DNA of 64,000 nucleotides. It comes from Diphasiastrum complanatum (taxonomy: Eukaryota; Streptophyta; Lycopodiopsida; Lycopodiales; Lycopodiaceae). Shown piece after piece: positions 1 to 64,000 of the stretch. A program made the position numbers and the translations under genes. The notes beneath the pieces are model-generated. The model searched no databases and was not told the DNA's origin. It was given only the letters and a program-made list of their open reading frames with translations. The stretch is from NCBI GenBank assembly GCA_029204225.1, contig CM055111.1:21975805-22039804 (forward strand), given 5' to 3'. Every line of letters starts with the position of its first letter. Position 1 is the first letter of the stretch.

Positions 1-889
1 CCCTGATCTTTGGTTACAATAAACCAACAATCCTGCCAATGTAGAAAAATCAGCATCTACATACAAAATGAGATGCAAAGTCTAAGAGATACTGATCAAA
101 CATGAATCAAAATATAAAATATAGCTTTTGCTCGTACAATTATAGTACCCTACTGTAATTATAGTACCCTATTTTATTTAACATGTGTGAAATCGAAAAT
201 AGCAATAAAAGATCATTCTACAAATAGAATTGCAAGATAACATGAGAGTGCACCAATGAGTAGTAGAACCCAAAGAGGACCATGTATAATGATGGAATGA
301 GAGAGAGAAGAGAGAATATGCGTCTCTCCATGAGTTACATCCTTTATAGAGTGTCCAAACCCTATTTGGCCACTTGGCTTTCCCTCCAAAATGTAAACCC
401 TACTATTTCTGGGACTAGATTCAATGTACCCAAAGTTCAAATTTGAATCTCTCCCAAACTTGACTACCAACTTTCCCACACTTTCAAAAAGTGTTTATTG
501 AATGTATTTTAAACTAATATAACTTCAAAAAGTTTAATCTCTAAGTCTAAAATGAGTTTTGGCCTCATATTAGTTAATAAGACACAATTGAAAACACCCG
601 ACCAAATCAATCACCACAGCACAACGTCAAGTGCAACAAGAACACAGAATTGCTCTCTTCAAACTGTATATTCCACTCTCTTCGTAAGTACAAAGATGAG
701 TTCCTTAAAAAACACTCAAAGGGCTCGTAAAAGCAAGATGGCCCGATAACTCTAGAACTAAGAAAGCACTGTATAAGTCGATCATTGCTATTTTAACTCT
801 CTCCCTCAATGATCAATGTCACTTCTTATTTTAGAGTATACTCTATTCATGGAACATAACTCCATGATAGCATTACATGCAAAGGCTTT
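1..889 (-). repeat. LTR-like remnant, R-arm end plus S-core start (copy A)
   Basis: Read on the minus strand this resembles a degraded retrotransposon LTR. A TATA-like 'tctataaagg' lies at about 342-351. The block 502-575 ('...aactaatataactt... ctctaagtctaaaatgag... ggcctca') is shared in diverged form with 11095-11150 and 12080-12150. Sequence 1-501 is the inverted copy of 10240-10740. Around 798-812, downstream of the RNase H stop, the minus strand carries a purine-rich 'ttgagggagagag' that could be a polypurine tract. No convincing gene; open frames at 213-479 and 552-749 show no protein similarity I recognise. Confidence 0.55.
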
Positions 890-1249
890 TTACATGACCT
901 GGCCTAAGCCAAGTTTGGCTCTAAAAGTTTCAAACTTTTCTTTACTTAAAGCTTTTGTAATTATATCAGCAACTTGTAACAACGTAGAACAATGTTCAAT
1001 TCCTATGTCTTCAGATTGTAATTTTTCACGCACAAAGTGATATTTTACTTCAATATGTTTTGTCCTTGCGTGAAAGATTGGATTTTTAGCCAATTGTATT
1101 CCACTTTGACTGTCACAAAAAATAATAGTGGGATTTACTTGTTTCATGCCAATCTCACATAGCAACTTACGTAGCCAAATAGCTTTCTGGGTAGAAAATA
1201 GAAGGGTTTTCTGAAGATCAGTTGTCATATTGCCATATTTTTGCCACAA
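890..1249 (-). pseudogene. Copia RNase H / pol C-terminus fragment (S1)
   Basis: An open frame of 119 codons matches the C-terminal end of Ty1/Copia polyproteins. It contains the RNase H tail 'IFCDSQSGIQLAKNPIFHAR' with the conserved D-S-Q/N core, followed by the characteristic 'RTKHIEVKYHFVREKL' and the terminal 'VADIITKALSKEKFE'. In an intact element this segment removes the RNA strand during reverse transcription. The reverse transcriptase that should lie immediately upstream (to the right) is missing; sequence at 1250-1870 is non-coding. It is therefore a truncated remnant. Confidence 0.9.
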
Positions 1250-1875
1250 AAGTCAATTTTTTGCAAAAAAATTTGCAAAAATACCAGTATTACTCTTGAT
1301 TCTTCGCCAAAACCTTCGTTGAGTTTCCAAAACATTCTATTTATAGTAAACTACTATTTTTGAGTTCGGCGAAGATTCTTCTTCTCCAGATCGTAGAAAA
1401 TCTTGATTTTTACCCTCGCCAAACTACAGAAACTGTATTTTCTTGTGTCAGAAACCTTCATCCGATTTTCCATTGTTTTATCTGTGTCAGATCTTGCATC
1501 TGAGAGGTCGGCGAAGGTTATTTCTATAGAAATTGTCAAAAAATTTGATTAGAGATTTTTTTCTCAAAACAGCATTGTTGAACCTTCGTCGAGCCAATCT
1601 TCACTTAGGGAACCTTCGCCAGTACTATTTTTAAGTTTAGACTTTCCAGATCAAGTCTCTATCAAAATTTAGGTCAAATCTAATACATTCTTATTTGGAT
1701 TCTGAGAAATTTTTCATTTTTTGAGAAGTATCAATTGATTGAATTTCGAAATCTTTTTCACGATATAGAGTCAGATTCTTGAAACTAGAATATATCTAGC
1801 AGCTTTGATCTGAGAAAGTTTTGATTGAAAAATCTAGATCCAATTTCATTGTGTGCTTGATTTGAATTTGTTAAA
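1250..1875. other. Non-coding leader-like stretch with clustered CTTCGCC-type motifs (S1)
   Basis: No gene is visible. The segment lies between a Copia tail and a Gypsy gag start and may be the LTR/leader of the Gypsy remnant. Short motifs built on 'cttcgcc'/'ggcgaag' occur at about 1302, 1367, 1415, 1509, 1582 and 1612, in both orientations. This is far more often than expected in AT-rich DNA. Copies B and C retain most of them. Confidence 0.4.
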
Positions 1876-2345
1876 ATGGCTGTCTTTGGAGCTGCTCCTG
1901 GAAGTGCTCCTCAGGAAGTCAATCCAATTATTGTTAGAAGAGCACCCCGTTTGGATCTACCCAAATATAATGGATTAACAGATCCAGTTAGATTTCTTCA
2001 AATCTATGCTGAATCCTGTGAAGTCTGGAGAGAGTTTTTCCCCAAGATAAACTTATGTTGTTTCCTATGGCCTTAACAGGCGCAACACAAGATTGATACT
2101 ATAATCAAGATGAAACTGAGCGTACAGATTGGGAGGTTGTTAAAAGAGCCCTTATCACACGATTCAAACCTCGAAAGTTTATGGAAGACCCCTTCCTACT
2201 TTTAAGTAAAATTAAAATGGGAAAGCAGAAAATGGTTCGAGATTACATTGAAAGGGTGAAACACCTCAGATCTGAGTGCAAACCTGAGCTGATTAACAAA
2301 AATGCCATGACTATGTGATTTTTGTCAGGTCTACCTAAATGGATT
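1876..2345 (+). pseudogene. Ty3/Gypsy gag fragment (S1)
   Basis: An ATG preceded by 'tttgttaaa' opens a frame with 'RRAPRLDLPKYNGLTDPVRF', the usual start of the plant Gypsy retrotransposon gag domain. After a frame change at about 2040 the domain continues with 'LFPMALTGA', 'YYNQDETERTDWEVVKRAL' and 'RFKPRKFMEDPF...RDYIERVKHLR', the conserved Retrotrans_gag order. Stops and the frameshift make it non-functional, and a deletion at about 2343 removes the sequence that follows in copy B. No zinc knuckle or protease is left. Confidence 0.85.
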
Positions 2346-3044
2346 TTTTAGTAAGAGGTCAAAATGTTATCATATCCGATGACGATTTTGTCTCCGTTTT
2401 GCTCAAATATGACAAAATTCACCGATTTTTGTTGTTTTCTCTGATTTCTCAAATCCAAATGGATCTTAAGAATGGTGATCTGAATAGCTTTCCTTGCTCA
2501 ACAATCAGATTAGATTTTAAACAAGATTATCCATCAAATCAAGCAAAATCACTCTCAATCTAACCCTAAAATGCAATTTTAGCCATACTTATGCCAAAAC
2601 AAGATGCCTAATGCAAACTAACATCCGTCAAAACATGATGTAAACTAATAAACTGGCGTAGCTCTCCGGAAACGGCGCCAAAATTGTTGTGGAGCTATTT
2701 CCTACCCTAGCCTCAACCCAAGATCCAAGCACACAAGCATCAAGGAGATGAGGTTAGATGTCATGCGGAGGTTCAATCCCATGAGAGCGATAGCATAGAA
2801 CAAAATCCAGCATGTACTGATGATCCACAATTAACACTAAGATCCATTAACACTAGCATTAGTCCTATAACCATTAGCACTAAATCCAATGATAGCGTAC
2901 TCCTCTCTCTCCCTTTCTCTCTCACAAAAAGCATAAGAATTAGAAAATCCAACAATAATCATTCATCGGGTTGGACTTACAGACGCAGGGTGCCAAATCC
3001 CTCTCACTTACTAACTAGGGTTAGAGTTGTCTCGATATCCACAA
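2346..3044 (-). repeat. Gypsy LTR / untranslated remnant (S1)
   Basis: No coding sequence is recognisable. A Gypsy-type primer binding site lies on the minus strand at 2663-2680, so the sequence to its right (2681 onward) is read as LTR and that to its left as element leader, both minus strand. A short region at 2765-2830 is the reverse complement, in diverged form, of sequence kept only in copy B at 33355-33480. Confidence 0.45.
2663..2680 (-). other. Gypsy-type primer binding site (S1)
   Basis: The minus strand reads TGGCGCCGTTTCCGGAGA, close to the TGGCGCCGTTGCCGGGGA-type tRNA primer binding sites known from plant Ty3/Gypsy elements. The equivalent site in copy B is even closer to that consensus. 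Confidence 0.6.
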
Positions 3045-4695
3045 ACCCTCCAACAGAGGCCGAATGTCAACTTTCTTAAAACTTTTGGATGTACTTGCTA
3101 TGTCAATATAACTCTTGATGATAGGACAAAGGAGGATCCATCTTCAAGGAAAGGTATATTTGTTGGATATAGTGAGGTGAGTAAAGCCTACAAGGTTTAT
3201 ATTCCTACTACTAATAAGGTGATTATTGGTAGAGATGTTATTTTTGATGAGGGGAATTTTCCAAAGGTGTCTTCAAGTGATGATGGTGTGGATGGATCTA
3301 ACAATCTTGATGTTGTTGTGATGGATCCTACTTTAGATGGTGATGATGAAGGACCTTCATCAAGTCAAAAGCCAAGGAGAACATCAAGGGAAAGACAAAC
3401 GCCTTCAAGGCTCACATATGATGAGAAATGTAAGCAAGTTGTTGGAGGTACAGACTTTGTTGTCCTAATTTCTTTTGATGAACCTACTTGTGTAGATGAA
3501 GAAAGGAACAAAGAGGAGTGGATCCAAGCAATAGATCTTGAGTATCAAGCCCTTATGAAGAATGGAACATGGATATTGGTGGAGTCACCTAAGGACAAGA
3601 AAGCTATTGGATGTAAATGGATATTCAAGGTGAAGACAATCAATAAGGTTGGTGGCAAAAGGACATGCTCAAGAACATGGTATTGACTATGACGAAACCT
3701 TTGCACCTATGGCAAATATGGTAAGCATTCGGGCCAATCTCTCTTGCTACTCTTTATGGATGAGATCTATGGCAATTGGATATTACAAATTCTTTTTTGA
3801 ATGGTGATCTTGAGGAGGAAGTGTACATGGAGCAACCTGAGAGCTACATTTGACCTAAAAAGCCAAATCATGTGTGTCTTCTACAAAAGAGTTTGTATGG
3901 CCTTAAGCAAGCACCAAGGAGTTGGTATGCTAGGCTTAACACTTTTTTACTCTCTCAAGGCTTTGTTATGAGTGAGTATGATCATTCACTTTATTATAGG
4001 TTTTCTGAAAATGATATTACCATTTTGCTAATCTATGTGGATGATATCATCTTGAGTGGTGGAGACAACCAAGATGTGGAGTATATCAAGAGTGCTCTCA
4101 AGAAGGAGTTTGAAGTGCATGATCTTGGTCATTTGCATTACATTTTAGGAATAGAAGAGATTATATCTTCTCAAACTACTTTCATTTGTCAAGAGAATTA
4201 TGCTAATTCTATTCTATAGAGATTTCATATGGTAGATGCAAAGTCTTGTGATATACCTATGGAGTCAAATGTAAAGCTAACTATAAGGGGTAATGAAAGA
4301 TCCTTCAAGGACATTACCCTCTATAGAAAGCTAGTTGGTTCACTTATCTGTCTAACCATCACAAGACCAGATCTAAGATATTGTGTTGGTGGATTAAGCT
4401 AATGTATGCAAGATCCTAGTGAAGAGCATTGGAAGCTAGGGAAACGAGTTTTGACATACATCATGGGAACTCGAGATTTTGGCATATTGTATGAGGGATC
4501 ATCACCTAACTTGTTTGGATTTTCACATTCAAACTTTGTTGGGAGAAAAAATGGATAGGAAAACCATAAGTACTCATTGTATTTTCATATGTGATGGAGC
4601 TATATCATGGATGTCAAAGAAACAAGCCACTATCTCATTGTCATCTACTAAGGCTGAATACAAAGCGCTTACAGAACATGAGTGTCAAACTTGAT
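3045..4695 (+). pseudogene. Copia pol fragment: integrase C-terminus, RT, RNase H (S1)
   Basis: Order along the strand: the integrase C-terminal segment 'FLKTFGCTCYVNITLDDRTK' with 'GIFVGYSEVSKAYKVYIP' (3060-3260), an acidic linker, the start of RT 'EEWIQAIDLEYQALMKNGTW' and 'KAIGCKWIFKVK' (3500-3640), a frame break at about 3660, RT 'SLYGLKQAPRSWYARL' (3890), the catalytic 'IYVDDIILSGGD' (4032-4067), and RNase H pieces including 'MSKKQATISLSSTKAEYKAL' (4610-4670). The YVDD box is intact, but the frame is broken at several points and the segment before the integrase C-terminus is missing. The left end abuts the Gypsy debris. Confidence 0.92.
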
Positions 4696-4699
4696 CCTT

Positions 4700-5913
4700 G
4701 ATTCCTCTCTGATTCCTTTCCAATCCTAAATAACAACACAATCAAGATTACTTATGCAAGACTCCCCCTTAGTGAATGAATCATAAAAGATAAAAGACTC
4801 ATCTTCTTGACTATCTTGCCTTAGCAAGCACCTCAATTCTATCCAACATTTAATCACTTGATCTACCTTTTTTATTAAACCATGTGATATTACTTGCTCT
4901 CTCTTCTTTATGTAACAAGCATCTCCATCAAACGCTACTTCATGTCCATTGTCAATTCTCCCAACACTAGGATGAATCTTTGAAAGTGAAGGAATGAACA
5001 ACACATTTTCATGTATTTGAGAGAGTAAGAGAAAGAGACAATACCTTAATAAAATACTAACCATCATTTGCCATGTAGATCACTTGCTTGACTCAGTCAT
5101 AAGTGACTAAGGAAGAAAAGAATTTCTTATGACTAGTCATATGAGAACTAGCTCCACTATCGATCTACCATGACTCTTTGTCACTTTCACTTGAGATGAG
5201 ACTTGAAGACATCATAAGAGTATCAACAACATCATTACTAACAAATTCACAATTGGTAAATTTTCTTTGCTTGCTACCTTCCAATTGCTCTCTTGTCATT
5301 TTATTGCACTCATAAGAAAAGGACATTTTCTGCCACAATAAAAGCACTTGAGTTCAGATTTATCATTCTTACCACCATAAGAGGATGTTGCCTCACCTTG
5401 CCCTTGATCCATGGTGCTCTTCTTGTTGGAGTTCCACTTGACTCCTCCTTTTCCCTTGCCTTTCGTGAAAAATACCTCTTCGTCTCCAACCTTGCTAGAA
5501 TTAGGTCTACTTCTAGTCTTAACATTGATCCTCTTTGGCACCAACACCTCTTGCAATTCTTCAATAGATGGCAAAGTTGTTAAATAGCAAAACTTTGAAC
5601 AAAATTAGCATAACCTTCTCCAAATCCATTTACAAACACTTGGACAATCTCAATGTTACCAATAGCATTGCCAACACATGCTAAGTCACCATTAAGAGAT
5701 TTAACCCTCACTACATAAGAATTAGCACTTTCACCTTCTGATAGCTTTGAAGAATTTTACTCCTTAGGGTGAGTGCCCTAGATATGATCTTTGACTCATA
5801 AATCCTTTGAAGAGTCCTCCATGCCTCGTAAGATGATGTGCAAGCCCTTACCTCATTGTGAAGCTTATTTGAGACATTCATCTTGAGGATGTGTAAAACT
5901 ACTTGGCCTTCAT
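4700..5913 (-). pseudogene. Copia gag-protease fragment (S1)
   Basis: Read right to left on the minus strand: a UBN2-type Copia gag ('SSYEAWRTLQRIYES' near 5815, 'VQVFVNGFGEGYANFVQSFA' near 5600-5640), a zinc knuckle near 5325-5345 that begins CFYC but has lost the His position and changes frame, a protease motif IDSGASSHMT near 5140-5155 preceded by an in-frame stop, and 'NGHEVAFDGDACYIKK' (about 4905-4955). These are the expected gag-to-pol-start parts in correct order, with stops and frame changes. It ends to the left at the 3' end of an unrelated, opposite-strand Copia. At its 5' end it joins directly to the pyruvate kinase fragment on the same strand. Confidence 0.87.
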
Positions 5914-6186
5914 TGGAACTAGCATGTACTTTGCAACAAGCTTTGTAGTAGTGCCGCCTCTAGTAAGGACGACAATCAAAGATTCTCGTACTTTATTAGC
6001 AGTTCACACAACCAATGATGCAAGGCTTTTTAATGGGCTCCTTGGAAGCGGCGTTTACTTCACGATTTCTTTGAATGTTGCAGCATGATCTAGAGATAAT
6101 TTTTCCTCGATGCAAACGTGAGCTATGTTTTTGACCACCAACTTTGGATATGCTCCAGCTGTAGTTGCACCACCAGCTCCATCCAG
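5914..6186 (-). pseudogene. Pyruvate kinase fragment, captured (S1)
   Basis: A single reading frame of 91 codons matches the C-terminal half of plant cytosolic pyruvate kinase. It includes 'TTAGAYPKLVVKNIAHVCIE' (equivalent to the GETAAGAYPELAV...CVEAE region), 'LSLDHAATFKEIV', 'PLKSLASLVV', 'TANKVRESLIVVLTRGGTT' and 'KLVAKY'. Pyruvate kinase makes pyruvate and ATP from phosphoenolpyruvate and ADP in glycolysis. Two in-frame stops and a short deletion near the first motif make this a dead fragment. It runs without a gap into Copia gag on the same strand, so it was probably captured by or recombined into a retrotransposon. Exactly the same piece is in the second copy. Confidence 0.87.
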
Positions 6187-6218
6187 TTGTTGACATTTCT
6201 TTACGCTTCACCCTTAGA

Positions 6219-6290
<72 letters not shown>
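6219..6290 (+). repeat. Compound microsatellite (TG)n(GA)n (S1)
   Basis: About 12 TG units are followed by about 24 GA units. It lies between the pyruvate kinase fragment and the upstream region of the protease gene. The copy in S2 has a clearly longer TG tract. Open frames through it encode only RERERE-type artefacts. Confidence 0.97.
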
Positions 6291-6292
<2 letters not shown>

Positions 6293-7690
6293 CGTGTACT
6301 GGTACAAATACCTTAAAATGAAGCATGAAGGGAGGGTCAGTTTCAATTTCGCTTTTCACAATCTATCCATTCATGCGTTGACTAAAACTTTTGCTTTTGC
6401 TTATGGTTCATGCAAACAAAAATAGCTTTTGCAATCCTTATGGCTCATGCATTGTTTGTGTGACTTCGTTCTAATTTTTATATGGCAATACTAGATGCAT
6501 GTTTCTTTAGCACTCAACAAAGGTTTTACCCTCAAAAATTAAGGCCACCATCACATAATATCCGTTATACCTTTTTTCAAAACTCCATTGAGTGACCTCA
6601 AGGCCAAAAACACCAATTTGCTATAACAGCAAAAACATAAAAAGGAGCTTTATGCGGGTACAGTCCCCGCTCGAGTTCAAAGGAGGTTCCCGCTCGTTTT
6701 ACTTTAAACCTAAAAGAAATGCTAGATATTTTTACTATATTTATGGGTGTGCATTCCATACTTGCTGTTACTTGTCATTTTCTTCTGTTTCTGCGAAGAT
6801 ATCCCCAGCACGGCAGCGATCGAACAAACGAGTCGCTTGAAGCAAGTTCCCACCACGTCTCCATCTTGCAAATCGTGGCGGTGGCAGCGCGCACATGTTA
6901 GCTAGCTCCTTGACGGCTCGCTACGATCATCGTCATCTAATTCTTCTTCTTCGTTTTTGAGTGATCAGCTGCAAGTATGTATCAACCCATATCTCATTTT
7001 CATGTTACGGTGTAATATTTGGATTTCGAGTATTGTTGTAGTCATGCATTGAGTTCCATTATCAACTTGAGGTCGTGTAGCTTGGGATGTTCCTCTTTCT
7101 TTTCAGTTGTCTTTGCAGGTTTTTCGGCTCCGTCTGGTTGCTTCTATCTCATGCTTTCCTCCTTTCGAATGATGTGCATAAAGCATACTAATACGTACTA
7201 GTACACACAGTATGATAGAGTTATATTACACTGTATGTGCTTTTTTATTCGCTCGTCGACCCTGTCTGCTTGTTTTCGTTGACACTTGATGACGAAAACA
7301 GTGCCTTTATTGTCCTGCCATTCACCCCTTGCACTGCCTGAGGATATCTTTGCTCAATCGCTTATCATCTCTGCCTGCATTTGGATAGAGTATCTGAAGC
7401 ATAGTCCTTATTTCAAGATTTCATTTCTGGTTATTGATGTACGAATTCTGATATCTATCTTCCTTGCTTTTCCAGCATAGTGGGTATCAGCATTCAGTAA
7501 TTCGCTGGCTTATACTTGAGCCGATTCTTTCATGTTTTTGGCAAAGCATAGCTCATGTTTTACGACTACTTTTTATAACTCAATGCAACAAGTACTTGAT
7601 CTGAAATATACTATTCAAATGTTTATGTGAAGCCAAATGCGAAAGTAGAGCTAAGCAAGTATAAAATTGGATTGCAGCTGCAAGAAAAAT
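6291..7690 (+). promoter_or_regulatory. 5' flank and putative spliced leader of the aspartic protease (S1)
   Basis: No transposon protein is visible in this 1.4 kb, which is more GC-rich and gene-like than its surroundings, especially 6790-6975. A possible untranslated exon ends at about 6975 ('cagctgcaa' followed by 'gtatgtatc', a fair donor). A strong acceptor, 'ggattgcag' with a following 'ctgcaag', lies at about 7669-7677, only 14 bp before the chosen ATG. Another acceptor-like 'tttgcag' is at about 7119. A leader intron is therefore plausible but unproven. No TATA box is certain. Confidence 0.4.
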
Positions 7691-9344
7691 ATGGCTTCCG
7701 TTCTGAGAACCACGAACAGAAGGTTCAACTTTGTTATTCATTTCATTCTTTCGGCCGCCATTACCTTCGACCTTTCGGGTGCCACAACATCTTTCTCTCA
7801 CACAAGCCAACGATCATCCATTCCCGACGGGTTTCAGCGCCCAGATTATGTCTCAGATTCTTGGGACCAAACAGCAATTCTTCCAGCCAATTCGCCGAAA
7901 ATTCTCGAAGGGCAATTGTTGGAAACAGGTATAAGGGAGACGGAGCTGCAGGGAGGAGCAAATGAAATTAGAACAGGAATACCCTTGAAGCTAGTCCACC
8001 GAACTTCTCTGCTGTCTCCACAGTCCAGGACTGAATCTGTTAAAATCAGCATTCTTAAAGAGTTGCTGGAGTTAGATACTGTCAGATTGAGAGGATACAA
8101 GCTCAGCTCATGGATTACTGGGATCCCCCAGAGTGGCCACTTTGCCTCAACGAATTCAGTGAGTAGAAAACACAAAGCCGCAGATGTTGCCCACGAGAAA
8201 TTTTCATCAGAGAGCGCAAACAACAGAATTAGTTCGGGGGCAACACTAGGCTCAGGTCAGTATTTTGTAGATTTCTACATGGGAACGCCAGCGAGGAAAT
8301 ATTCCCTGATCGCGGATACTGGCAGTGATCTAATCTGGATTCAATGCTACCCTTGCAGTAAATGTTATTCGCAATCCAATCCTATCTACTATCCCAATAC
8401 TCGTCTTCTCATCAGTTTCTTGCTCTGCCAAACAGTGCTTTCTTGTTCCAGCACCACCACACGATTCCTGCAGTTCCAGGTTTCCAACAAGCTGCCAATA
8501 CACGTACGAGTACAATGATGGATCTTCTACTAGTGGCTTTCTAGCATCTGAGACGGTCACAATGATATCTAGCTCTGGCGAGCGTTTGAAGATCAGCAAC
8601 ATCACGTTTGGATGCGGCTTAAGCAATGAAGGTCAGACTCTGCACGGATCTAACGGCGTCCTTGGTCTTGGGCAGGGGCCTGTCTCTTTTGCATCTCAGT
8701 TAGGAGATCTCTACGGAAGCATATTTTCCTATTGTCTTGTGGACTATCTGAAAGCCACTACAGATACTAGTCTGCTTGTGTTTGGAGATGCCAAGATTTC
8801 GCAATCTTTGAGGAATGCTATCCAATACACTCCACTTTTGAAGAATTCATTTGCAGAAACGTATTACTATGTGGGCATCAAGCATGTTCGTTTGAATGGA
8901 CGAGTTCTGCCTATCCCTTCAAAATTATGGCAGATTGACTCTGCCGGCTATGGTGGCACCATTGTTGATTCTGGCACGACACTCACATATTTCAGAAAAG
9001 CGGCTTATTCACTTATTGTTGCTGCATTTAAACGAGCCATAACTATGCCTAGAGTAGCACCCATTCAAGGCCTTGATCTCTGCTTCAACGTTTCTGCTGA
9101 TTCTGGCATAAAAATTCCTGAATTCTCAATCCTTTTGGAAGGAGATGTCCTCTTTCAGCCCCCAGCAGAGAATTACCTTATTGACACAGCTCTTGATGTG
9201 AAGTGCATTGCAATGCAAGGAGTCGATTCACCTCTTGGATCAAACACAATAGGAAACTTGCTCCAGCAGAATTTCCATGTAGAGTATGATAGATCAAGAG
9301 CCCGACTGGGGTTTGTGTCGGCAAACTGCTCCTCATCATCGTAG
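7691..9344 (+). pseudogene. Nepenthesin-like A1 aspartic protease, one frame break (S1)
   Basis: Encodes a pepsin-family endopeptidase of the plant nepenthesin/CND41/CDR1 class, about 550 codons, a little long for the family. The start ATG at 7691 gives MASVL, basic residues, then a hydrophobic 'FVIHFILSAAITF', a likely signal peptide. A propeptide follows, then the first active site DTGSDLIW (Asp at 8315-8317), the Cys-rich 'IQCYPCSKCYSQSNPIYYP', the flap region 'PTSCQYTYEYNDGSSTSGF', the second active site IVDSGTTLTYF (Asp at 8967-8969) and the typical ending 'FHVEYDRSRARLGFVSANC'. Both catalytic motifs are intact. The frame changes once, between about 8400 and 8414, where the family has a serine-rich stretch before 'SVSCSAKQC'; a net +1 shift is present. 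No intron boundary fits there. Copy B has the same shift, so it is not a random base-calling error in one copy. Either a recently inactivated gene or an unusual allele. Confidence 0.9.
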
Positions 9345-10165
9345 CCATGATCAACCACTCCATACTTCTCAGGCATTATTTTCCAATGCATTGGGATACA
9401 CTTCAAAATTACATGAAGCTAGTTTTAGAGACACGTTTACGTTCTTTTAGAGGATGTTAACTACTGCTGAGCATGATTTGCTGGAATTGATTCATAAAGA
9501 TGCCAATAAAACTCTCAAATTACTTCCAAGCGGGAAGGTAGGAGATTCTTTCTAAGATGTTCGATTCTGAAAAAAATCTCCATGTATGTTTCCTGTATGA
9601 AGCAAGCTAGTTATCCTTTACTTCAGCTGGCTTTTGGGTCATTGACAGTTAGCTTGACTTGTGTGGTAGACGATTTGTAAGCAGTGCTTGGAAAACCTTT
9701 TGGATATTGCCTCCAAAATCTGAAGTTTTTGCAGAATTTCTAGTTTTTATCTGAACTTATTGACTTCAAGTCGTTCAGGTCGTGCAACTCATGGCTCTTT
9801 CCTTAATTCTTGAAACAAGAGAGTTTGCTATTGAATACTGCAAGAAAAAGTTTAACAAATAAAATCGAACTACCTTGGCAGCAATTCTAGCTAAATGTAA
9901 AATATAGAATGTGTGAACTCTCAAAAGTTCACAAAAACAACAAATTTCATACACCTTTCCCTTTCGCCCACTTGAGCTATGACCAATTTTCAAAATGCAT
10001 TTATACACCCTTATTCTCAATTTTTGCATGTAGCCTTTAGCCTGATATGTAGACAGTTTTAGCTTTGTCCTAATAGCAATAAGCCATTGTGAGTATTTGT
10101 TAAAAGCTGAGTTGCAGCCTCTAGGTGACACTAGCATTATAATGGGTTTCTAGGTTATATTTTTA
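9345..10165. other. 3' flank of the protease, no recognised gene (S1)
   Basis: AT-rich sequence following the protease stop. Possible polyadenylation signals occur ('aataaaa' at about 9507 and 9858). A minus-strand open frame of 120 codons (9775-10137) is also open in copy B, but I recognise no family and the two copies are too similar for that to mean conservation. Confidence 0.4.
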
Positions 10166-10239
10166 GTCTTGAAGATCCATCACAGGTGGCAAAGTCTTTT
10201 GAATAGCAATAGTTTGAACAATGTTAGCATGAGCATCCA
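10166..10239 (-). pseudogene. Copia gag scrap cut by the L-arm boundary (S1)
   Basis: The minus strand encodes 'DAHANIVQTIAIQKTLPPVM', matching the gag segment seen elsewhere here as 'DDFANLVQSFAIQDTLPTIE' and 'GYANFVQSFAI'. The match stops exactly where the L arm begins, so it marks one side of an ancient junction. Confidence 0.75.
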
Positions 10240-11440: not shown

Positions 11441-11679
11441 ATACTCTACACATGCATTGGCAATCCTAAACCATATACTAGCTACAATAATTGTGTTTGG
11501 GCCCTCACAAGGTTATTAATTACATTACTAGCCTCTTCCATAATAATGTGGCATAACCAATAATATCATGCTAGAGTACCATGTATGCAAGTCTAGGATT
11601 ATACCAAATCCTATATATAGGACATGGATGTAACACTTTTTGATAAGAAGACAAGCATCAAGCATTGAAGATCTTTGGT
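11441..11679. other. Non-coding link (L1)
   Basis: Short AT-rich sequence between LTR-like debris and a Copia integrase scrap; nothing recognised. A small palindrome-like 'cctatatatagg' lies at about 11612. Confidence 0.3.
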
Positions 11680-52723: not shown

Positions 52724-52727
52724 GTTG

Positions 52728-54272
52728 CTTCATCGACTTCATCATCTCGCGCTCTATATGTCAACAAAGGCTCAAAACGATAGAAGCAGAAAAGCTCTAA
52801 GCAGTCCGCATCAAATCGGAAACCGACGCAAAGGCAAGAACAATTATCAAATCCACAGTTGAAGAAGAAGATATTCTGTAAGTATGCAAGTGCACTAATC
52901 ATGAAATCTCGGATTGCAAGGTTCTCAAAGCGAAGAATGCCAACAAGCAACCAGAGGCGAATGCAGTCCCCCCATCTCCTGAACTCGACATAGAGGAGAT
53001 ACATTTATGGTCAAAGACCAAAAGTCCCTATTGGGTACTTCTTGGTTTCTAGATTCTGGAGCATGTTCACTCCTATATGCGTTACAGTACAAAGAAGTAT
53101 GTTTATATTGGTGACAATAGCACACACACTATCGAAGGTGAAGGCACTATAAGATTTAAATTCTAGCATGATCAATTCAAACTACAATTAAAAGCTTTGT
53201 TTGATCCTAAACTCTCTAAAAACCAATTATCAGTAAGTAGAATCACTAATTTAGCTCATAGGGTAGAGTTTGAGTCATCAATAGAGAAAATAAGGTCCTT
53301 GCACTCGGCAAGAGACATGGATACTTATATAGATTGGCACATTGTTATTCTGATACTGGTCAAGTCTTGAAAACCTCTGTTCTTGTCAATAAAGCATTAC
53401 TATGGCATCAAAGATTAGGAAACTTGAATCATACATCTGTATTGAACATGTCCAAACAATCCCTAGCACTTGATCTCGACTATCCAACCGACAAAGTCAA
53501 CCACCCTGTCTGTCATAGCTGCATCCTTGGAAAGTAGACTAGGATTCCCTTTAGATCGAGTCATAGGCATGCAACAAAAGATCTATTAGACGTTGTTCAT
53601 TCATATATATGTGGTCCAATGCAATTCCACCATTGCGTGATGCAAAGTATTTTATTACCTTCATTGACGAATATTCTAGAAGAACAGTTGTTTATTTCAT
53701 GAAGCATAAATTGGAGGCTTTCAAAATCTCTCAACAATTCAAAGAGCGTGTAAAAAATGAAATTGGTAAAAGAATTAAAGCAATGAGATCCGACAACGGG
53801 GGTGAATATATCTCTACCCGAACTCAAAGAGTATTGTCTTAACAACGGCATTGGGCAACAATACATTACCTCCTATTCACCTCAATAAAATGGACTTGTT
53901 GAGAGAAAGAATAGAACCTTAGTCAAATAGGCCAAGTGTAAGCTTGCGCATGCGACATTGCCATAGTCCTTCTGGGCTGAAGCTGTTTTCACTGCAGCTT
54001 ATATTCAGAACAGATGTCCTACTAAAGGTCTCTCAGACAAAATGCCATATGAAGTTTGGATAGGCTCCAAACCATCATTATCAAACTTACGAGTTCTTGG
54101 ATGTATCGCTTATGTGCAAATTCCGCATGATCTCACAAAGAACCTCGAGTTCCAGAGTATAGAATCTATTTTCATCAGCTGCACTACTTCACAAAATGCT
54201 TATAAGTTGTATGATCCTATCGAGTCGAAGATATTCACTAGTCGAGATGTCATCTTCATCGAAGGTTAGTTT
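52728..54272 (+). pseudogene. Copia protease-integrase fragment (R2)
   Basis: Counterpart of 21283-22832. The gag part present before R1 is replaced here by the HSP90 fragment. The knuckle region (about 52875), 'FLDSGACS' (about 53050), 'WHQRLGNLNHTS', 'CHSCILGK', 'VHSYICG' (Asp to Tyr as in R1) and 'SDNGGEY' follow. It ends with 'SRDVIFIEG'. Confidence 0.87.
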
Positions 54273-54546
54273 ATCTACCTCAAAGGTAAGAGCAAAGCTC
54301 ATATATCCAAACTATGAAACTCTCCGAGTTATTGAACTTTCCAGTTCTCAACTTGTCTATTCCTATTGAAGGTCCTAGCTCGTCTACTCCAAACGAATAG
54401 TCTTTTGCAAATTGAATCCTCAATGGAGGTGGGTCATCAATATTCCACTCATTAATTGCCCCCTAAGATAAGGGTTGTAGGGTGAAGGGTTTAGGTTTAT
54501 AGAGCAAGGGTTTTAATATTTAGGATATGGGGTTGGTTGACTTATG
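54273..54546. other. Junction segment between opposed Copia fragments (R2)
   Basis: Copy of 22833-23108. No gene. Confidence 0.45.
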
Positions 54547-55543
54547 TTATACTCCTTTTCTTCTTAATGTTACATTGTTGAGTAAGGTTAAGAATGTGTC
54601 CTTTTGGAAAGTCGTATGGGAGCTAGCCCCACTATCAATCCACCAAGTGTCCTTTGAGTTGCTTTTGCTTGTTGGAGTGGATATAGATGCCATCAAAGAT
54701 GAGATCTCCTCATCTCCATCCTCTTCATATGCAAGGTTCCCTTGTTGTCCTCCTCCTCTTTTGCTCTTAGCCTCTTGTAGCATTCGGATGCATAATGCCC
54801 CTTCTTTCCACAAAAGAAGCATTTTTGTTTTGACTTGTGCTTTGAGCTTGATGCATCATCCTCTTCTTTAGCCTCCTTTGGATGCTTCTTCTTTCCATTG
54901 GTCTTCTTTTTGCCCTTGAATGAGAAATTGGCTTTCTCATCACCATCCTGCAAAGACAAGGAACTCATCCTAGATTTTGCATGGAGCATGCTACACTCTT
55001 CAGCCACTAATACACTATGAAGTTTTTCTATAGTTGGCAAAGTGTATTGGATGGCAAAACTTTGGACCAAATTTGCAAAGTCATCTCCTAGACCATTCAG
55101 GACAATCTGTACAAGCTCTCCATCATGAATCTTCTCTCCAATGGAAGCCAACTCCCTATTTAGAGACTTGTTTTCGAGTACATAATCTTGTGCACTCTCC
55201 TCACTTCTCCTCATGCTTTGCAGAATCTGATTCCTAGGCATTAGAATCCTCGAAGTGTTACTAGATTCATAGATTGATTTTAAAGTCTCCCAAGCCTCTT
55301 TAGCACTCATGCTAATACTTCTCTCAACAAATCATTCATCTTCACACAAATAAGTGCAAGCCAAGATCTCTTCTTGTATCTAGCTAACTCATGTGCACCT
55401 AGAGATTCATCTTCATCTTCAATCAAGAACTCATAAAGGTATTGGAGCACCAAAAGTGACTCCATCCTAACCTTCCAAACAGCATAATTTGTAGAATTCA
55501 ATCTCTCACTAGCTTCTAGAAGGTATGCTCCAGCAGATCCCAT
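54547..55543 (-). pseudogene. Copia gag, zinc knuckle and protease start (R2)
   Basis: Counterpart of 23109-24105. Gag frame open for 205 codons (54693-55310), N-terminal part in another frame (55307-55543). Agrees with L2 in 'YAVWK', 'MSAKEAW' and 'EEDGDEE'; own changes include 'AWETLKS' and 'EECSMLH'. Confidence 0.9.
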
Positions 55544-56305
55544 CTTACTAGTGACTTCTAAAACAAGAAATAGATTTGATTGACTTGAAACTCAAAAAGG
55601 TCTCACACTTGCAATGTTTCACTCAAATTTGATTTCTAATCCAACAAATGGACTTATAATCACATTTCTATCACTCCCTCACAAAGCCGAAATGAAAATA
55701 AGATGAAGTGAAAACTCTTTTCAATCAAATTTTGCCAAGAAATGGATTTGATTGTCTCTAGAAGCTCACTAAGGTCTCTTTCTTGTAGTGTCTCACTCAA
55801 ATTAGATTCCTAATCCAACAAATGGACTTATAATATCAGTTCTAGCACTCCCTCACAAAGTTGGAATGAAGATAAGATGATGTGATCTTGCCAATTTTGG
55901 CTATTTTTGGACAATAACATGAATAACTCTCCCTCACACTTTTTAGTGTACTTTCAAGACCTGTAAAACAAGTTTAGAGGACCTGACTTCAGCCTAGATC
56001 TCATGACCCTAAGTCAAATCTAATCAATGGCACTCAATCTTGGTAGCTTATCCTAAGATTTCCACCAAAAATTACATCAAAAGCTCACAAATTGAATTTC
56101 TGTGGATCAAATGATTACCATGCATTAAATGCAGGTTCAGAGGTGCCCACACGTGGACAGTACGGATTTGGACCCCTACCAATTTTGGGATCAAATCTCC
56201 TCACCAAAATCAAAATTCTAGATTGCCCTCTCAATACTAGTTTTTAGCACCAAAACTTGCTAAAAATGGATTTGCTTTTGATAAATGGCTTATGCTCTTG
56301 TACTT
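55544..56305 (-). repeat. Copia leader with tandem duplication (R2)
   Basis: Inverted copy of 48043-48813; lacks a few bases near 55998 relative to R1. Confidence 0.65.
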
Positions 56306-56318
56306 GCCTCTGATACCA
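56306..56318 (-). other. Copia primer binding site (R2)
   Basis: 'gcctctgatacca', reverse complement of the site at 48030. Confidence 0.8.
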
Positions 56319-57689
56319 TGTGAAAGTACTATACTTTAGGACCATAAATGGATCTACAAAAGATCCACAAGAGTGTTTGGATGCTTGCTTAACAATCTAT
56401 CAAAAAACTAGACACAAAAAAAGTTGATCTAGATTGGCAATTTGACAAACAACAAGCATTAACAATCAAAAGCATTGATCAACATGGAAATACGGTCCCA
56501 CACATGTGTACTACAGGCTGTAGTACGGCCTCCAACCTAAGAAACAACCTCATAAATTGATCTGGTTTCATTTGGATCACAAAAACTCAATGTACATAGT
56601 GAACTAGCTTGAGATTGCCAATGAGCTCCAAAAATATTCTATCTTCTCACTATGGGAGCTTGGAATACATAGCAAATTCGACTTCCTTCTTGAAGTTAGG
56701 TGGATTTCCAGCATGTAATAAGGAAGTTAACTCACCCTTCTTGCCCTAAAATGAAACCTAGATCCTAGACTTATGCTTGGTAGGTAGCTAGTTGGTCAAA
56801 TTTTCACCTTAGACTTAGGTGTAGGTCCTATAAAGTAGGGATGACCACCAAATAGACATGACCAACTCTCTTGAATTGACTTAACCTACATTAGGAGTGG
56901 GTTTCCACGTGGCATCTTGGCCTTCCATGTGTGGAACCCAATTATACACAATATTTGCAAAGTTCTACATGGCTAGATTTGCCAAAATAGGCTATTTTTC
57001 ACAAAAAACTTCAGCAAAATCACCATGCAAAAAATTTCCACAAGTATAGTACATAAAATTAGGGAAAATATTTACGCTTTTTTAAAATTTTACTCACAAA
57101 ATTGCCAAAATTTCAAACAGACATAACTTGAGCTACAATGAACCTATAAATCACAATACAAAGAGAGACCAAGTGACTGAGAAGCTTGACATGTCACCTA
57201 CGACCTCAGCTTACAGAGCCACATAAAATATGTAGTAGGACGCACTTTCAAAGAGAGGTTTCATGCAGAATCAACCAAATACCAACCTAGCACCCAAAGA
57301 GACATTACCAACAGTCTTAAAAGGTTTATTAGACTTCCGTGAAGCCTTCACTCAAATCAAGGGATGTAGTATGGGCTGAGAATGAAGATTTTTCAACTTG
57401 TGGGAGGGTGCTTTAGCGATAAACTTCATAGAGACGGAACACAAGCCTCTGATCACCAATTTACAGGCCTGATAGCTTGTTGGGATGGCCAGGAGGAGTA
57501 TAAATAAAGATGGATTGACTTCATGCATGATTCTCTTGTGGATTTCTAGCCATAAATCCCCCAAGAACCCTTTCAAAAAACAATTTTTAGTCTTTTCAGG
57601 CCTTCCTACACCCTCAGTTCTCTAAAGTCTTTGCTCTAACTTCATGGACAGCTTCAAAAGATATTGATTAATCTGTGAAGAAATATGAA
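56319..57689 (-). repeat. Probable Copia 5' LTR region (R2)
   Basis: Inverted copy of 46651-48029. The sequence near 56535 is rearranged by a few bases compared with the other arms. No coding sequence. Confidence 0.5.
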
Positions 57690-58339
57690 TCATTAAAATC
57701 CAACCTAATCTCTTGTTCTTTGGTTATGGAAGACAACACAATTTACACCATTGGCAATGTAGAAAATCAACATCTACTTAATGAAAGAGATGCAAACTTA
57801 ATAAGAACTTGATCAAACAGGAGAATAGTGTCCATATTGGATGCTTCACTATTTCTTACATCAATTTTGTACATCAAGATATAACTAGAACATGAAGAAC
57901 CAAATAGAATTGAAATGAAATGATTCCACCATGCTTCCAACTCTGAACTCTTTGGAAACTAATAGCAACCAAACAATAAATGTCTGTGATGACCACTTGC
58001 TTGCTTGTCTCCTCCATCTTTGTCCTTTCTTGATATGTCTCCACCATAAAACTCCATGAATGCACCTCCATCTCCATCTTGCCAAAAGATGTCATCATCA
58101 CTTGATGACTTGATCATGAATGAGTGATACAAAAGTTTCATTTCCATCAGCAAAGCCAGCCAAGATTTCTAGTACAACTTTAACATCAATATGATGCAAA
58201 ACAATGTAGCTAGTTTCACCATATCTTGACAATTTGCACACATTCACATGAAATTGCTCATACATGAGATAGAACAAGCAAAGTAAACTTGAACAACACT
58301 TGATTGCTGCTCCTTTGAACTTACTTGAGTCTTAAAATA
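57690..58339 (-). repeat. 3' region of RT-less Copia and LTR-like tail (R2)
   Basis: Inverted copy of 14721-15360; keeps the bases deleted from L2. No gene. Confidence 0.5.
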
Positions 58340-59966
58340 CCTGCAAAAATAGATCCAAAACATCTTTGCCAATTGACTCTCCTTTGATGCTCTTGACAGC
58401 TCCAAATTGCCACCTTACCTTTTGTCTTGTTGAAGCCCTTTGAGATCAACCTCTTGATCATCAACTTGACCATCAAAGTCATTGAACAAACTTTTTTTTC
58501 CAGATTCATTACTTGATGTAAAATCATGAAAATGTCCATCCACTTGCATAGCATCATCTACAAAAGAAGAATCATCAAAACATGTGAGAAAAGCAAAATG
58601 AGTCACTTCCACTTGCTTACCCTTCTCATCATATGTGAGCCTTGAAGGTGTTTGCCTTTGCCTTGATGTCCTCCTTGGCTTTTGACTTGATGAAGGTCCT
58701 TCATCATCACCATCTAAAGTAGTATCCATGTCATCACCATCGAGAATGTTAGATCCATCCACAACATCATTACTTGAAGACACCTTTGGAATGTTCCCCT
58801 CATCAAAAATGACATCTCTTTCAATAATCACCTTATTAGTACTAGGAATGTAAACCTTATAGGCTTTAGTCACCTCACTATATCCAGCAAATATACATTT
58901 CCTTGAAGATGGATCCTCCTTTGTCCTATCACATCCAAAAGTTCTAAAAAGTTTGACACTCGGCCTTTTCTTGAATAGCATCTTAAAAGGTGTTCTTCCA
59001 TCCAATATAGCACTCGGCCACCTATTGCATATAAAGTCAGCACACAAGGAAGCTTGATCCCAAAATGGTTTTGGAATATTAGCTTCTAACCTCATGGCTT
59101 TGGCGCTTTCACATAAAGTTCTATTCTTCCTCTCGGCCACTCCATTTTGTTGTCTCCTTGGAGTCTTGTGTACTCCCTCTTGATCACATGCTCATCACAA
59201 AAGGCCTTGAACTTGGTTGAGATATACTCACCACCATTGGCACTTGATCTTTGTAGAGAATTGGTTCTCTCTTGCATTCTTGAACTTGACAAAGACATCA
59301 TACACTTCATCTTTGCTCTTTAGTAGATAGATCCAACAAAATATACTAAAATCATCAATGAAAGTTACATACATCTTATCTCCACTATTGCTACTTGTAG
59401 TAATTCCCTGAATATCTGAATGTACAACTTGAAAAGTCTTTATAGATCTATTATAAGGTAGTCTACGTGACTTTGTAAAAGCACAAGACTCACAAACATG
59501 CTTGATGCTAGTTAAGGAACTTGGAAGACCAATCACAACTTGCTAGGCTAGCCATTTCCTCCAATGACTTGAAGTTGAGGTGCCCCATCCTCTTATGCCA
59601 AACTTCTTGAATAGGTAGTTGCTCACTTGCAACACATCCAACTTGGTTAGCAATAACACAAGCATCTAGTTTGAATAACTTCCCTTGTCTTTTACCTTTT
59701 GCAATCAAGACATCCTTCCTTTTAATCATACAAGTAGTTTAAATTGATCATGCTGAAATTGCAATCTTACAGTTGTGAGTACTATTGTCACCAAGATGAA
59801 CAAATTTCTTCGTGCTGCAAGGCATGTAGGAGTTGAAAAACTCACATTGATTGGTCATGTGTTGAGTTGCTCCAGAATTCAGAAACCATGAATTATCCAA
59901 AAATGCGCTTTGATCTTTAAACCATAAATGCGCCTTCGTCCACTTCAACCTGGGGAGATGATGAAA
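58340..59966 (-). pseudogene. Copia protease-integrase segment without RT (R2)
   Basis: Counterpart of 13067-14720. A 27-bp in-frame deletion near 58930 removes most of 'TCYVNIALD'. The protease part is readable ('NSWFLNSGATQHMTNQCEFF', about 59830-59890) because the base lost in L1/R1 is present. 'SANGGEY' again lacks the catalytic Asp; 'IFAGYSEV' keeps the Gly that is Arg in the other arms. Confidence 0.9.
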
Positions 59967-60491
59967 CTGTGTTTCCTATGTACAATTTACATGGTAAGTT
60001 TTGATCAAGCTAGATTTTCCAATTTTTGGCAATTTCTCACAGTATACAACAATCTTTACATGTGTGGAATCATGACATACACACCTAGATGCCTTCTACA
60101 CACTAGAATCACCAATATAAAGAGAGAAGAGATAGAAAAAGAAAGTTCTCCAAACATCAAGAAAAAACTTGATTGCTTTCTCCACACTCGTACAACTATA
60201 TATTGCAGAAAATATGTCATTTGGCCACTTGCCAATTATTAGTAGTACTTTCCAAGTACTTACCAGAAACCTAGTTAATCAAGTGACTAGTTTCAATGTA
60301 TCTAGTTACGAAAAGTCATTTGGTCCAAATCCGAGCTTGACTTATCAAATAATTTTCAAAAATAGCAACATTACTATTTCTAAGAATGATTTACATAAAA
60401 AAATGTTCGTCTAAGTTTACCTCTACCTTTGTCCTCCAAGTTGCCAAATTAAACCAACTAAACTAGTTGACATTTTTCACACTCCCTCTTC
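59967..60491 (-). repeat. Polypurine tract and Copia 3' LTR (R2)
   Basis: Polypurine tract 60482-60491, LTR start at 60481. Lacks 18 bp near 60134 relative to the other three arms. Confidence 0.6.
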
Positions 60492-60941
60492 CACTAGTTT
60501 TACCACACAACTTTTCAAGAATGATCTCCATTCTAAGAAAAGACCTCCTCTCAATGCTTTTGTAATGTTCAAAATAGAAACATTCATAATTGATATAGAT
60601 AATAGTGTCCAGGTTGGATGCTTCACTATTTCTTACATCCGAATATAAAGATGAAACTAGTACATGAAGAACAAAATAAAATGAAAATGTTATAATTCCT
60701 CCATGCTTCCACCTTCGATATCTCTGAAAAATAGTAGCAACCAAGTAATAAATGTGAGTGCTCAACAAATACTTGCAAGCCTTCTTCATATTTCAATTCA
60801 TGTAAAGTGTGAAAGAATCAACTAGTTTCATCATATTTACTATATTTTCATATTTGGCATATTGAGGCCAACTTTGTTTTTAGACTTAGAGATTGACTTT
60901 TCAAAGTTCATTAGTCTAAATGTCATTCGAATGAACATCCA
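60492..60941 (-). repeat. 3' untranslated Copia sequence and LTR-start scrap (R2)
   Basis: Inverted copy of 43366-43815; agrees with R1 in 'DVRNSEASNLDT'. Confidence 0.5.
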
Positions 60942-61347
60942 TTTCATGAAGACAACCATCCATTTGCATACCATCATCTACACAAGAAGATGTGCCAAAA
61001 TATGTGAAAAAATAAAATTTGTACCTTCCACAACTTGCGTACCCTTTTCATCATATGTAAGCCTTGATGGCTTTGTCATTTGCCTTGAGGATATTCTTAG
61101 GACTTGAATTGGCATCTCAAAAACCACCATCCAAAAAACCATCTTCATCACCATCAAAAATATTAGATTCATCAGCATCAACAACATCAAGCTTATCCCC
61201 ATTTTTCTCTTCAAAGATAACATCCATAGAAATGTGAACTTTCTTTGAATTAGGAATGTAAAATCTATAAGCTTTTCTTACTTCACTATAGCCAAAAAAA
61301 ATCCCCTTAAAGGATTGAGTTGACATAGCAAGTACTACCAAAGGTCT
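60942..61347 (-). pseudogene. Copia integrase C-terminal scrap (R2)
   Basis: Counterpart of 29558-29953 and near-identical to it, with 'GIFFGYSEVRKAYRFYIPNS' open. Confidence 0.75.
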
Positions 61348-61576
61348 TCAATGCTTGATGATTGTCTTCTTATAAAAAAGTGTTACATCCATGTCCTATA
61401 TATAGGATTTGGTATAATCCTAGACTTGGATACATGGTACTCTAGCACTTGATATTATTGGTTATGCCACATTATTAGGGAAAAGGCTAGTAATGTAATT
61501 AATAACCTTCTGAGGGCCCAAACACAATTATTGTAGCTAGTATATGGTTTAGGATTGCTAATGCATGTGTAGAGTA
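61348..61576. other. Non-coding link (R2)
   Basis: Copy of 29954-30192; nothing recognised. Confidence 0.3.
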
Positions 61577-62102
61577 TCAATAAAAATGGAAAGCACTTTA
61601 AGGGAGTTGGGCACATGAATAGGGAGGCTTGGGGCTTATATAAGGCTTGTAGAAACTCGCCCAATTCCATTTTTTATTTTGGTGCCTTCATTGCCAGTTT
61701 CTCTCTCTCTCTTCGACACTTGTCTCCTTTTGCAAGTTTTTTCACAACTCTGGTTACATACTGCTGTAAAACACCTAATAGACCTCCTTAGCGGACTATG
61801 TGAGAAATTGTCAACTAGTTTGCTATTTTGGTCATATTTGTTTATTTGTCAATTGAGGCCAATTTACATATTAGACTTAGAGATAGTCATTTCAAAGTTA
61901 TTTTAGTTCAAATGTTTTTGAATTACCACTTTTAGAAAGTGAGGAAAAATGTAGGAGCTCAAGTTTTGTAGATTCAAATTTGAATGTCGGAGACATTGAA
62001 TCTAGTCCACATTAATTGTAGGGTTTTTGATATGGAGGAAAACCAAGATCATTAATGAGGCATGGACCTGTTATATATAGCTATACACATGTGGGAAGAG
62101 AA

Positions 62103-62149
<47 letters not shown>

Positions 62150-62778
62150 TCATTTCATGCTTATACATGAGTTCTCTTGGGTTCATCTATCCATTGGTGC
62201 ACTATTTTGGTGATATCTTGAAATCGTGTGTGTAGAATATGTCAAGGATTCCAGATCATTCAAGATACAATCCATGTCCCTGATCTTTGGTTACAATAAA
62301 CCAACAATCCTGCCAATGTAGAAAAATCAGCATCTACATACAAAATGAGATGCAAAGTCCAAGAGATACTGATCAAACATGAATCAAAACATAAAATATA
62401 GTTTTTGCCCGTACAATTACAGTACCCTACTGTAATTATAGTACCCTATTTTATTTAACATGTGTGAAACCGAAAATAGCAATAAAAGATCATTCTACAA
62501 ATAGAATTGCAAGATAACATGAGAGTGCACCAATGAGTAGTAGAACCCAAAGAGGACCATGTATAATGATTAAATGAGAGAGAGAAGAGAGAATATGCGT
62601 CTCTCCATGAGTTACATCCTTTATAGAGTGTCCAAACCCTATTTGGCCACTTGGCTTTCCCTCCAAAATGTAAACCCTACTATTTTTGGGACTAGATTCA
62701 ATGTACCCAAAGTTCAAATTTGAATCTCTCCCAAACTTGACTACCAACTTTCCCACACTTTCAAAAAGTGTTTATTGA
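61577..62778. repeat. Head-to-head pair of LTR-like remnants (R2, outer end)
   Basis: Inverted copy of 41543-42730, meeting at about 62277. The (TC)n tract at 62104-62145 is uninterrupted and longer than in L2. About 12 bp ('ttagatttgcat' region) are missing near 61609 relative to R1. Confidence 0.65.
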
Positions 62779-63166
62779 ATGTATTTTAAACTAATATAAC
62801 TTCAAAAAGTTTAATCTCTAAGTCTAAAATGAGTTTTGGCCTCATATTAGTTAAGAAGACACAATTGAAAACACCCGACCAAATCAATCACCACAGCACA
62901 ACGTCAAGTGCAACAAGAACACAGAATTGCTCTCTTCAAACTGTATATTCCACTCTCTTCGTAAGTACAAAGATGAGTTCCTTAAAAAACACTCAAAGGG
63001 CTCGTAAAAGCAAGATGGCCCGATAACTCTAGAACTAAGAAAGCACTGTATAAGTCGATCATTGCTATTTTAACTCTCTCCCTCAATGATCAACGTCACT
63101 TCTTATTTTAGAGTATACTCTATTCATGGAACATACCTCCATGATAGCATTACATGTAAAGGTTTT
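62779..63166 (-). repeat. LTR-like start and possible polypurine tract (S3)
   Basis: Third copy of 502-889; no gene. Confidence 0.45.
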
Positions 63167-63526
63167 TTACATGACCTGGCCTAAGCCAAGTTTGGCTCTA
63201 AAAGTTTCAAACTTTTCTTTACTTAAAGCTTTTGTAATTATATCAGCAACTTGTAACAACGTAGAACAATGTTCAATTCCTATGTCTTCAGATTGTAATT
63301 TTTCACGCACAAAGTGATATTTTACTTCAATATGTTTTGTCCTTGCGTGAAAGATTGGATTTTTAGCCAATTGTATTCCACTTTGACTGTCACAGAAAAT
63401 AACAGTGGGATTTACTTGTTTCATGCCAATCTCACATAACAACTTACGTAGCCAAATAGCTTTCTGGGTAGAAAATAGAAGGGTTTTCTGAAGATCAGTT
63501 GTCATATTGCCATATTTTTGCCACAA
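63167..63526 (-). pseudogene. Copia RNase H / pol C-terminus fragment (S3)
   Basis: Third copy of the 119-codon tail; reads 'NPTVIFCDSQ' like S2. Confidence 0.9.
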
Positions 63527-64000
63527 AAGTCAATTTTTTGCAAAAAAATTTGCAAAAATACCAGTATTACTCTCGATTCTTCGCCAAAACCTTCGTTGAG
63601 TTTCCAAAACATTCTATTTATAGTAAACTACTATTTTTGAGTTCGACGAAGATTCTTCTTGTCCAGATCGTAGAAAATCTTGATTTTTACCCTCGCCAAA
63701 CTACAGAAACTATATTTTCTTGTGTCAGAAACCTTCATCCGATTTTCCATTGTTTTATCTGTGTCAGATCTTGCATCTGAGAGGTCGGCGAAGGTTATTT
63801 CTATAGAAATTGTCAAAAAATTTGATTAGAGATTTTTTTCTCAAAACAGCATTGTTGAACCTTCGTCGAGCCAATCTTCACTTAGGGAACCTTCGCCAGT
63901 ACTATTTTTAAGTTTAGATTTTCCAGATCAAGTCTCTATCAAAATTTAGGTCAAATCTAATACATTCTTATTTGGATTCTGAGAAATTTTTCATTTTTTG
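63527..64000. other. Leader-like stretch with CTTCGCC-type motifs (S3, cut by window end)
   Basis: Third copy of 1250-1720. Motifs 'cttcgcc', 'ggcgaagg' and 'ccttcgtcgag' are preserved much as in S1. The Gypsy gag start would lie just beyond the window. Confidence 0.4.

Follow-up and report, generated by a model that had tools for sequence, protein, structure and literature searches.

The locus examined here belongs to a cluster of rearranged duplications that covers ~0.4 Mb of contig C20, putatively chromosome 20 of the clubmoss Diphasiastrum complanatum, and a four-step history in which a plant segmental-duplication cluster gained palindromes is probably the correct account of it. The window, that is, the whole 64,000-nucleotide stretch analyzed (C20:21975805-22039804), was compared with itself by BLAST, and genome searches were run on the 1.745-Gb assembly. 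Self-BLAST recovered a direct repeat of 31.3 kb, present as two units plus end pieces, with two inverted arms of 9.1 to 9.7 kb per unit flanking cores of ~10 kb and 2 to 2.4 kb. The direct pairs are 2343-19343 with 33632-50598 (98.6% identity) and 21284-32657 with 52728-64000 (97.8%); the inverted pairs are 10841-19343 with 30782-22305 (98.2%), 41543-51138 with 62778-53202 (96.9%), 21764-30782 with 51138-42144 (97.8%), and 10240-19343 with 62778-53743 (97.2%). Self-matches of 9 to 17 kb at 97 to 98% identity are, judged from the sequence, far above chance level. The locus thus combines multi-kilobase direct copies with >90% identity in one chromosomal region, as in a tandem segmental duplication, with large inverted arms around a spacer, as in a palindrome.

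We divided the window into blocks R (502-2343), S (2344-10239), L (41543-51138; L' is L reversed), X2 (51139-52727), X1 (19364-21283), and Y (21284-21763), with S-flanked arms termed La, R-flanked arms termed Lb, and joins written with a slash. The order is Lb0 end, R S La1 X1 Y Lb1, R S La2 X2 Y Lb2, R, as follows.

1-501, minus strand: outer end of arm Lb0, the remainder lying left of the window (C20:21966681-21976305)
502-2343, plus strand: R of unit 1, the ancestral neighbor of L'; ~353 bp before S, kept in units 2 and 3, are absent
2344-10239, plus strand: S of unit 1, which together with R makes up the core flanked by the inverted arms Lb0 and La1
7655-9344, plus strand: plant aspartic protease of unit 1 (TAXi_N/TAXi_C), in two overlapping frames
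10240-19343, plus strand: arm La1, S-flanked; S/La join at 10239/10240, derived
19344-21283, plus strand: spacer X1 of unit 1, with a deletion scar at 19343/19364
21284-21763, plus strand: spacer Y of unit 1, a piece of a dispersed element that continues into L'
21764-31435, minus strand: arm Lb1 (L', R-flanked), with two ancestral borders
31436-33632, plus strand: R of unit 2
33633-41542, plus strand: S of unit 2, containing a second broken aspartic protease (38955-40647)
41543-51138, plus strand: arm La2, 9,596 bp
51139-52727, plus strand: spacer X2 of unit 2; La/X2 join at 51138/51139, derived
52364-52729, antisense frame: HSP90-like fragment, close to the right end of unit-2 X2
52728-53201, plus strand: spacer Y of unit 2, with X1 deleted
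53202-62778, minus strand: arm Lb2
62779-64000, plus strand: start of R of unit 3

The two spacers are unlike: unit 1 retains X1 and Y, the deletion at 19343/19364 having removed ~540 bp of arm La1 together with the entire X2, while unit 2 retains X2 and Y and has lost X1. A fuller spacer, X2-42 bp-X1-Y, is preserved at C20:21835453-21839464. Unit 3 extends beyond the window to ~C20:22.064 Mb with R, S, a chimeric La arm, and pieces of Y', X1', X2', and Z'. Scanning the window against Rfam at gathering thresholds gave no matches. A sequence-only reading of the same DNA had described a direct repeat with a period of about 31.3 kb carrying inverted arms; the self-BLAST match ends confirm this and agree within a few bases with all eight junctions it had placed. 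Its count of at least three units in the window has to be lowered to two plus end pieces, further units lying outside (the S/La join is found at five C20 places), and the position that it took for a palindrome border (21283/52728) is actually the end of unit 2's X1 deletion, not a primary border.

It is unlikely that the array is an assembly artefact, created by lining up haplotypes or redundant contigs of a single locus as if they were tandem units. Such an explanation could draw on C20:31519501-31524700, which is an inverted copy of 21805540-21800341 with 1 mismatch in 5,200 (99.98%); the match extends over 31508540-31513400 (6 mismatches and 22 gaps in 4,868) and halts at a run of N (31507401-31508539), as would be expected if a redundant contig ended at a gap, although the N may instead mark withheld bases. 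This near-identical copy suggests partial assembly redundancy, and a recent duplication is possible. Against an artefact, the window and its flanking sequence (21966001-22069800) contain no N, the five arms are 1.2 to 1.8% apart with a longest identical run of 692 bp between any two, different units carry different deletions, and five S/La places are incompatible with two haplotypes of one unit. With arm divergence above 1% and shared identical runs of at most 692 bp, long reads could separate the arms. The near-identical copy at C20:31.51-31.53 Mb concerns sequence outside the window.

The arms carry retroelement relics. The window contains 10 arm frames of 120 or more amino acids, of which 9 match copia/retroviral families (gag, zinc knuckle, SH3); the tenth has no match, and no functional gene was found among the 10. 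These matches, along with dispersed copies of arm parts, are what would be expected had one transposable element inserted twice, independently and in opposite orientations, before tandem duplication, yet we consider that origin extremely improbable: no terminal repeats framing the arm were found, the order of the integrase-end (SH3) and gag fragments is the reverse of that in a copia element, each border of the arm is embedded in another dispersed element, and the joins inspected show no matching target duplication. The arms accordingly lack the paired long terminal repeats with target duplications of an LTR retrotransposon. An arm as a single transposon was likewise rejected on its missing terminal repeats and on borders within other dispersed elements. 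The sequence-only reading was right to set aside ordinary retrotransposon nesting, the arms not being two separate retrotransposon insertions.

The same reading called the aspartic protease in the core near-intact, which is borne out by similarity but not by reading frame. One protease frame has best matches of 98% and 87%, both in Diphasiastrum complanatum; the 468-amino-acid protein in public databases that matches at 98% may derive from any copy. The gene lies in two overlapping frames in both window units, with a small insertion near 8400 in both relative to the unit-3 copy, and a single open frame is absent from units 1, 2, and 3 and from two other near-complete copies. Between units 1 and 2, 1 of 1,690 protease-gene bases differs, versus 42 of 5,304 across the remainder of S. 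We do not claim purifying selection, as adjacent noncoding bases also differ little and the frame is broken.

Border searches distinguish older from younger joins. Each search scored the top 40 among thousands of candidates; the counts are therefore not census figures, and some rows from other contigs have equal scores and possibly represent redundant contigs. A query across L'/R gave 43 matches, with 19 rows on other contigs continuous from 1-601/605 over the border at 535, while five S-flanked copies end exactly at 535 (best 40 of 8,228 candidates). With a query across Y/L', position 701 was crossed in 22 of 24 rows from other contigs, and five X2-flanked arms begin exactly there (best 40 of 9,986). 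Because L'/R and Y/L' are crossed on other contigs at the very points where S-flanked and X2-flanked arms stop, we regard L'/R and Y/L' as the ancestral joins and S/La and La/X2 as breakpoints within old elements. These two breakpoints share only 0 to 1 bp with their partners and are nearly blunt.

Both derived joins recur across the C20 cluster. S/La is spanned at five places, with matches starting at 21923275, 21952330, 21985344, 22016647, and 22047950, all on the plus strand of C20, and S ends at this join at six further C20 places, one of them the near-duplicate at 31.5 Mb (best 40 of 5,512 candidates for both counts). La/X2 is spanned at 21834752 (plus), 21928888 (plus, 95%), 21965981 (minus), and 22026243 (plus) and truncated at 21882972, all within the C20 cluster (best 40 of 7,007). 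Combining the matches scored for both joins, there are seven La-bearing units, some of them decayed. The layout of C20:21.890-21.958 Mb is taken from match positions alone.

The cluster also contains units without the inverted arm, in which S is followed by a block Z: 21795525-21800320, 21857366-21862084, and a shortened one at 21821146-21822365. All three continue into X2-X1-Y. The first two have lost ~0.4 kb at the Z/X2 edge, which is intact at 21701152, at 21752383, and at the right end of the array; the Z order was assembled from several such units, none of those read base by base having both S/Z and Z/X2 intact. Deletions differ between units. The simplest reading is that one event swapped Z for an inverted L' and that this unit was then amplified; co-occurrence of the two joins, best visible at 22.017-22.027 Mb, suggests that both formed in that one event. 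We considered whether the right end of the array (S/L..Y'X1'X2'Z') might be an untouched intermediate of the inverted duplication and rejected it, as its arm is chimeric, comprising L 1-2982, an R2 piece, and L 4972-9596, with the break at L 4972 also present at 21.727 Mb.

The history that we favor would run as follows. A segment of ~25 to 30 kb, R-S-Z-X2-X1-Y-L', as deduced from surviving units, would first have been tandemly repeated on C20. In one unit, the 4.9-kb Z would then have been exchanged for an inverted copy of the unit's own 9.6-kb L'; since both joins are nearly blunt, repair probably involved template switching or end joining rather than homologous recombination or transposition. 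The new unit, R-S-La-X2-X1-Y-Lb, would have multiplied as direct copies, to judge from the joins shared between units and most likely by unequal crossing-over, yielding palindromes whose cores alternate between 10 kb and about 4 kb. Unequal crossing-over leaves no diagnostic join behind. Finally, facing arms would have traded sequence in their inner 7.3 kb, with the spacer becoming inverted in one unit, while other units decayed through deletion. Tandem duplication most likely came first because the cluster also holds S-Z units without the inverted arm, and the corresponding intact borders are ancestral.

Generation of palindrome and array in one burst, by fold-back or rolling-circle amplification or, as a variant, through an extrachromosomal dimer of the ODIRA type, is very unlikely. 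The alternation of inverted and direct repeats fits such a burst, as does Lb/La divergence that only modestly exceeds La/La divergence, but units lacking La occur in this cluster too and have the direct repeat in common with the others; a palindrome is thus not needed as the source of the array. Moreover, Z was lost in the event, in contrast to an ODIRA inverted triplication, in which no sequence is lost, and the two joins are mutually unrelated and nearly blunt. Of the sequence-only reading's proposal that a large inverted duplication was followed by tandem amplification, both ingredients are required and stand, but order and mechanism differ from ours, with tandem duplication most likely first; rolling-circle replication, which it had offered as one route, is demanded by no observation here.

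We turn to exchange between the arms, beginning with the divergence of five full copies. Substitutions over the whole arm (La1, Lb1, La2, Lb2, and Lb0) amount to 1.18% between La1 and La2, 1.18 to 1.54% among the three Lb, and 1.45 to 1.77% between La and Lb; Lb0 is 1.50% and 1.54% from Lb1 and Lb2, as distant as La is from Lb. Thirty sites separate S-flanked from R-flanked arms, and 28 of these fall in the outer 2,230 of 9,596 bases (Fisher P = 2e-14; binomial P = 5e-16, with the cutoff set post hoc), whereas singletons are evenly distributed across the same five arms (2.3% outer, 2.6% inner). In a tree of 10 outer copies, the 3 S-flanked copies form a 100/100 clade with 13 fixed differences, the top score among 120 choices of three. 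Ten inner copies are nearly unstructured: three Y-flanked copies group at 82/92, a fork drawn as open, and grouping by inner flank yields a single fixed site, a score that 6 of the 120 choices attain, counting the true one. This grouping weakly favors exchange. Trees of R, X1, and X2 show hardly any resolution, and S segments from palindromic units come together only at an open fork (83/94).

A unit at 21.953-21.976 Mb carries its spacer flipped, in the order S/L..Y'X1'X2'/L'/R. Its outer joins, S/L and L'/R, are as usual, and its X2/L' join is the La/X2 breakpoint reversed. Recombination between arms, the process we infer here, directly explains this inversion, and the flipped unit is stronger evidence of exchange than the inner-arm test. 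Taken together, the distribution of sites and the flipped spacer point to arm-to-arm exchange as the process that would have shaped the inner arms. Gene conversion without crossing-over, or exchange between neighboring units, would also level the inner arms.

Human and ape Y palindromes are much larger, gene bearing, and sex linked, and spacers invert between their inverted repeats. The clubmoss array resembles them in its large inverted repeats and arm-to-arm exchange (PMC7023750), but here exchange has not left the arms near identical. Another parallel comes from Salix purpurea, whose W chromosome carries two consecutive palindromes, W.P1 and W.P2, with a 20-kb sequence common to all four arms; W.P1 has a short spacer, and the willow arms, which show evidence of sequence exchange, are >99% identical and bear expressed genes in a sex-determining region (PMC7023750). 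Both are plant systems of consecutive palindromes with shared arms, spacers, and signs of exchange; unlike those of willow, the clubmoss arms are 97 to 98% identical and carry retroelement relics, the core holds a broken gene, and S/La occurs at five places. ODIRA in yeast likewise generates inverted copies within the segment being amplified (PMC4689423). Maize Mu killer, likewise an inverted duplication of transposon sequence, has been proposed to yield a hairpin RNA (PMC3440606); the clubmoss array is known from its DNA sequence alone.

It is quite unlikely, though worth stating, that the array is a live palindrome system in a plant without sex chromosomes, with arms still recombining and spacers flipping in the population, the palindromic unit rather than its gene being what was amplified, and, if transcribed, 9-kb copia-relic hairpins feeding small-RNA silencing of related elements genome-wide. 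To our knowledge, this homosporous clubmoss has no sex chromosomes. An array in such a plant would test whether arm exchange needs a nonrecombining region. The sole published plant palindrome pair of comparable kind that we found is on a sex chromosome (PMC7023750), and no lycophyte palindrome array is described in the titles or abstract openings retrieved by a search that was thin on subscription journals. The array is a variant of a known palindrome design; it is especially valuable because Z-type, palindromic, and spacer-flipped units coexist in it, making both the birth of a palindrome and its later recombination readable from one assembly.

The part of the core segment S that holds the frame-broken aspartic protease differs at a single one of 1,690 bases between units 1 and 2, the two copies of the 31.3-kb direct repeat (7655-9344 versus 38955-40647). 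The remainder of S diverges far more (42 of 5,304 bases), and the low divergence of the protease region is found despite its broken reading frame. The 3′ part of S, protease included, has a near-full-length relative at C20:34936647-34939696 (84%); partial relatives also occur on contigs other than C20.

The spacer block of unit 2 (X2) has dispersed copies, whole or partial, on other contigs at 74-93%. Features of this spacer and of the inverted arms Lb1 and Lb2 are as follows.

52364-52729, antisense: HSP90/endoplasmin N-terminal domain-like fragment, spacer X2
24126-24447: tandem repeat, period 174, 1.9 copies, arm Lb1
55564-55885: tandem repeat, period 174, 1.9 copies, arm Lb2

The HSP90/endoplasmin-like fragment has no Pfam match. 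Arm La1 contains an 83% direct repeat at 17203-17524, with spacing equal to that of the Lb period-174 repeat.

Left of the window, C20:21779805-21789804 is N throughout, exactly 10,000 bases, and is perhaps something other than an assembly gap. Parts of C20:21.80-21.82 Mb recur, inverted, 9.7 Mb away at C20:31519501-31524700 (99.98% identity) and C20:31508540-31513400 (99.4%). The match between the 31.5-Mb copy and C20:21.80-21.82 Mb ends at an N run; this inverted near-duplicate is probably a redundant contig.
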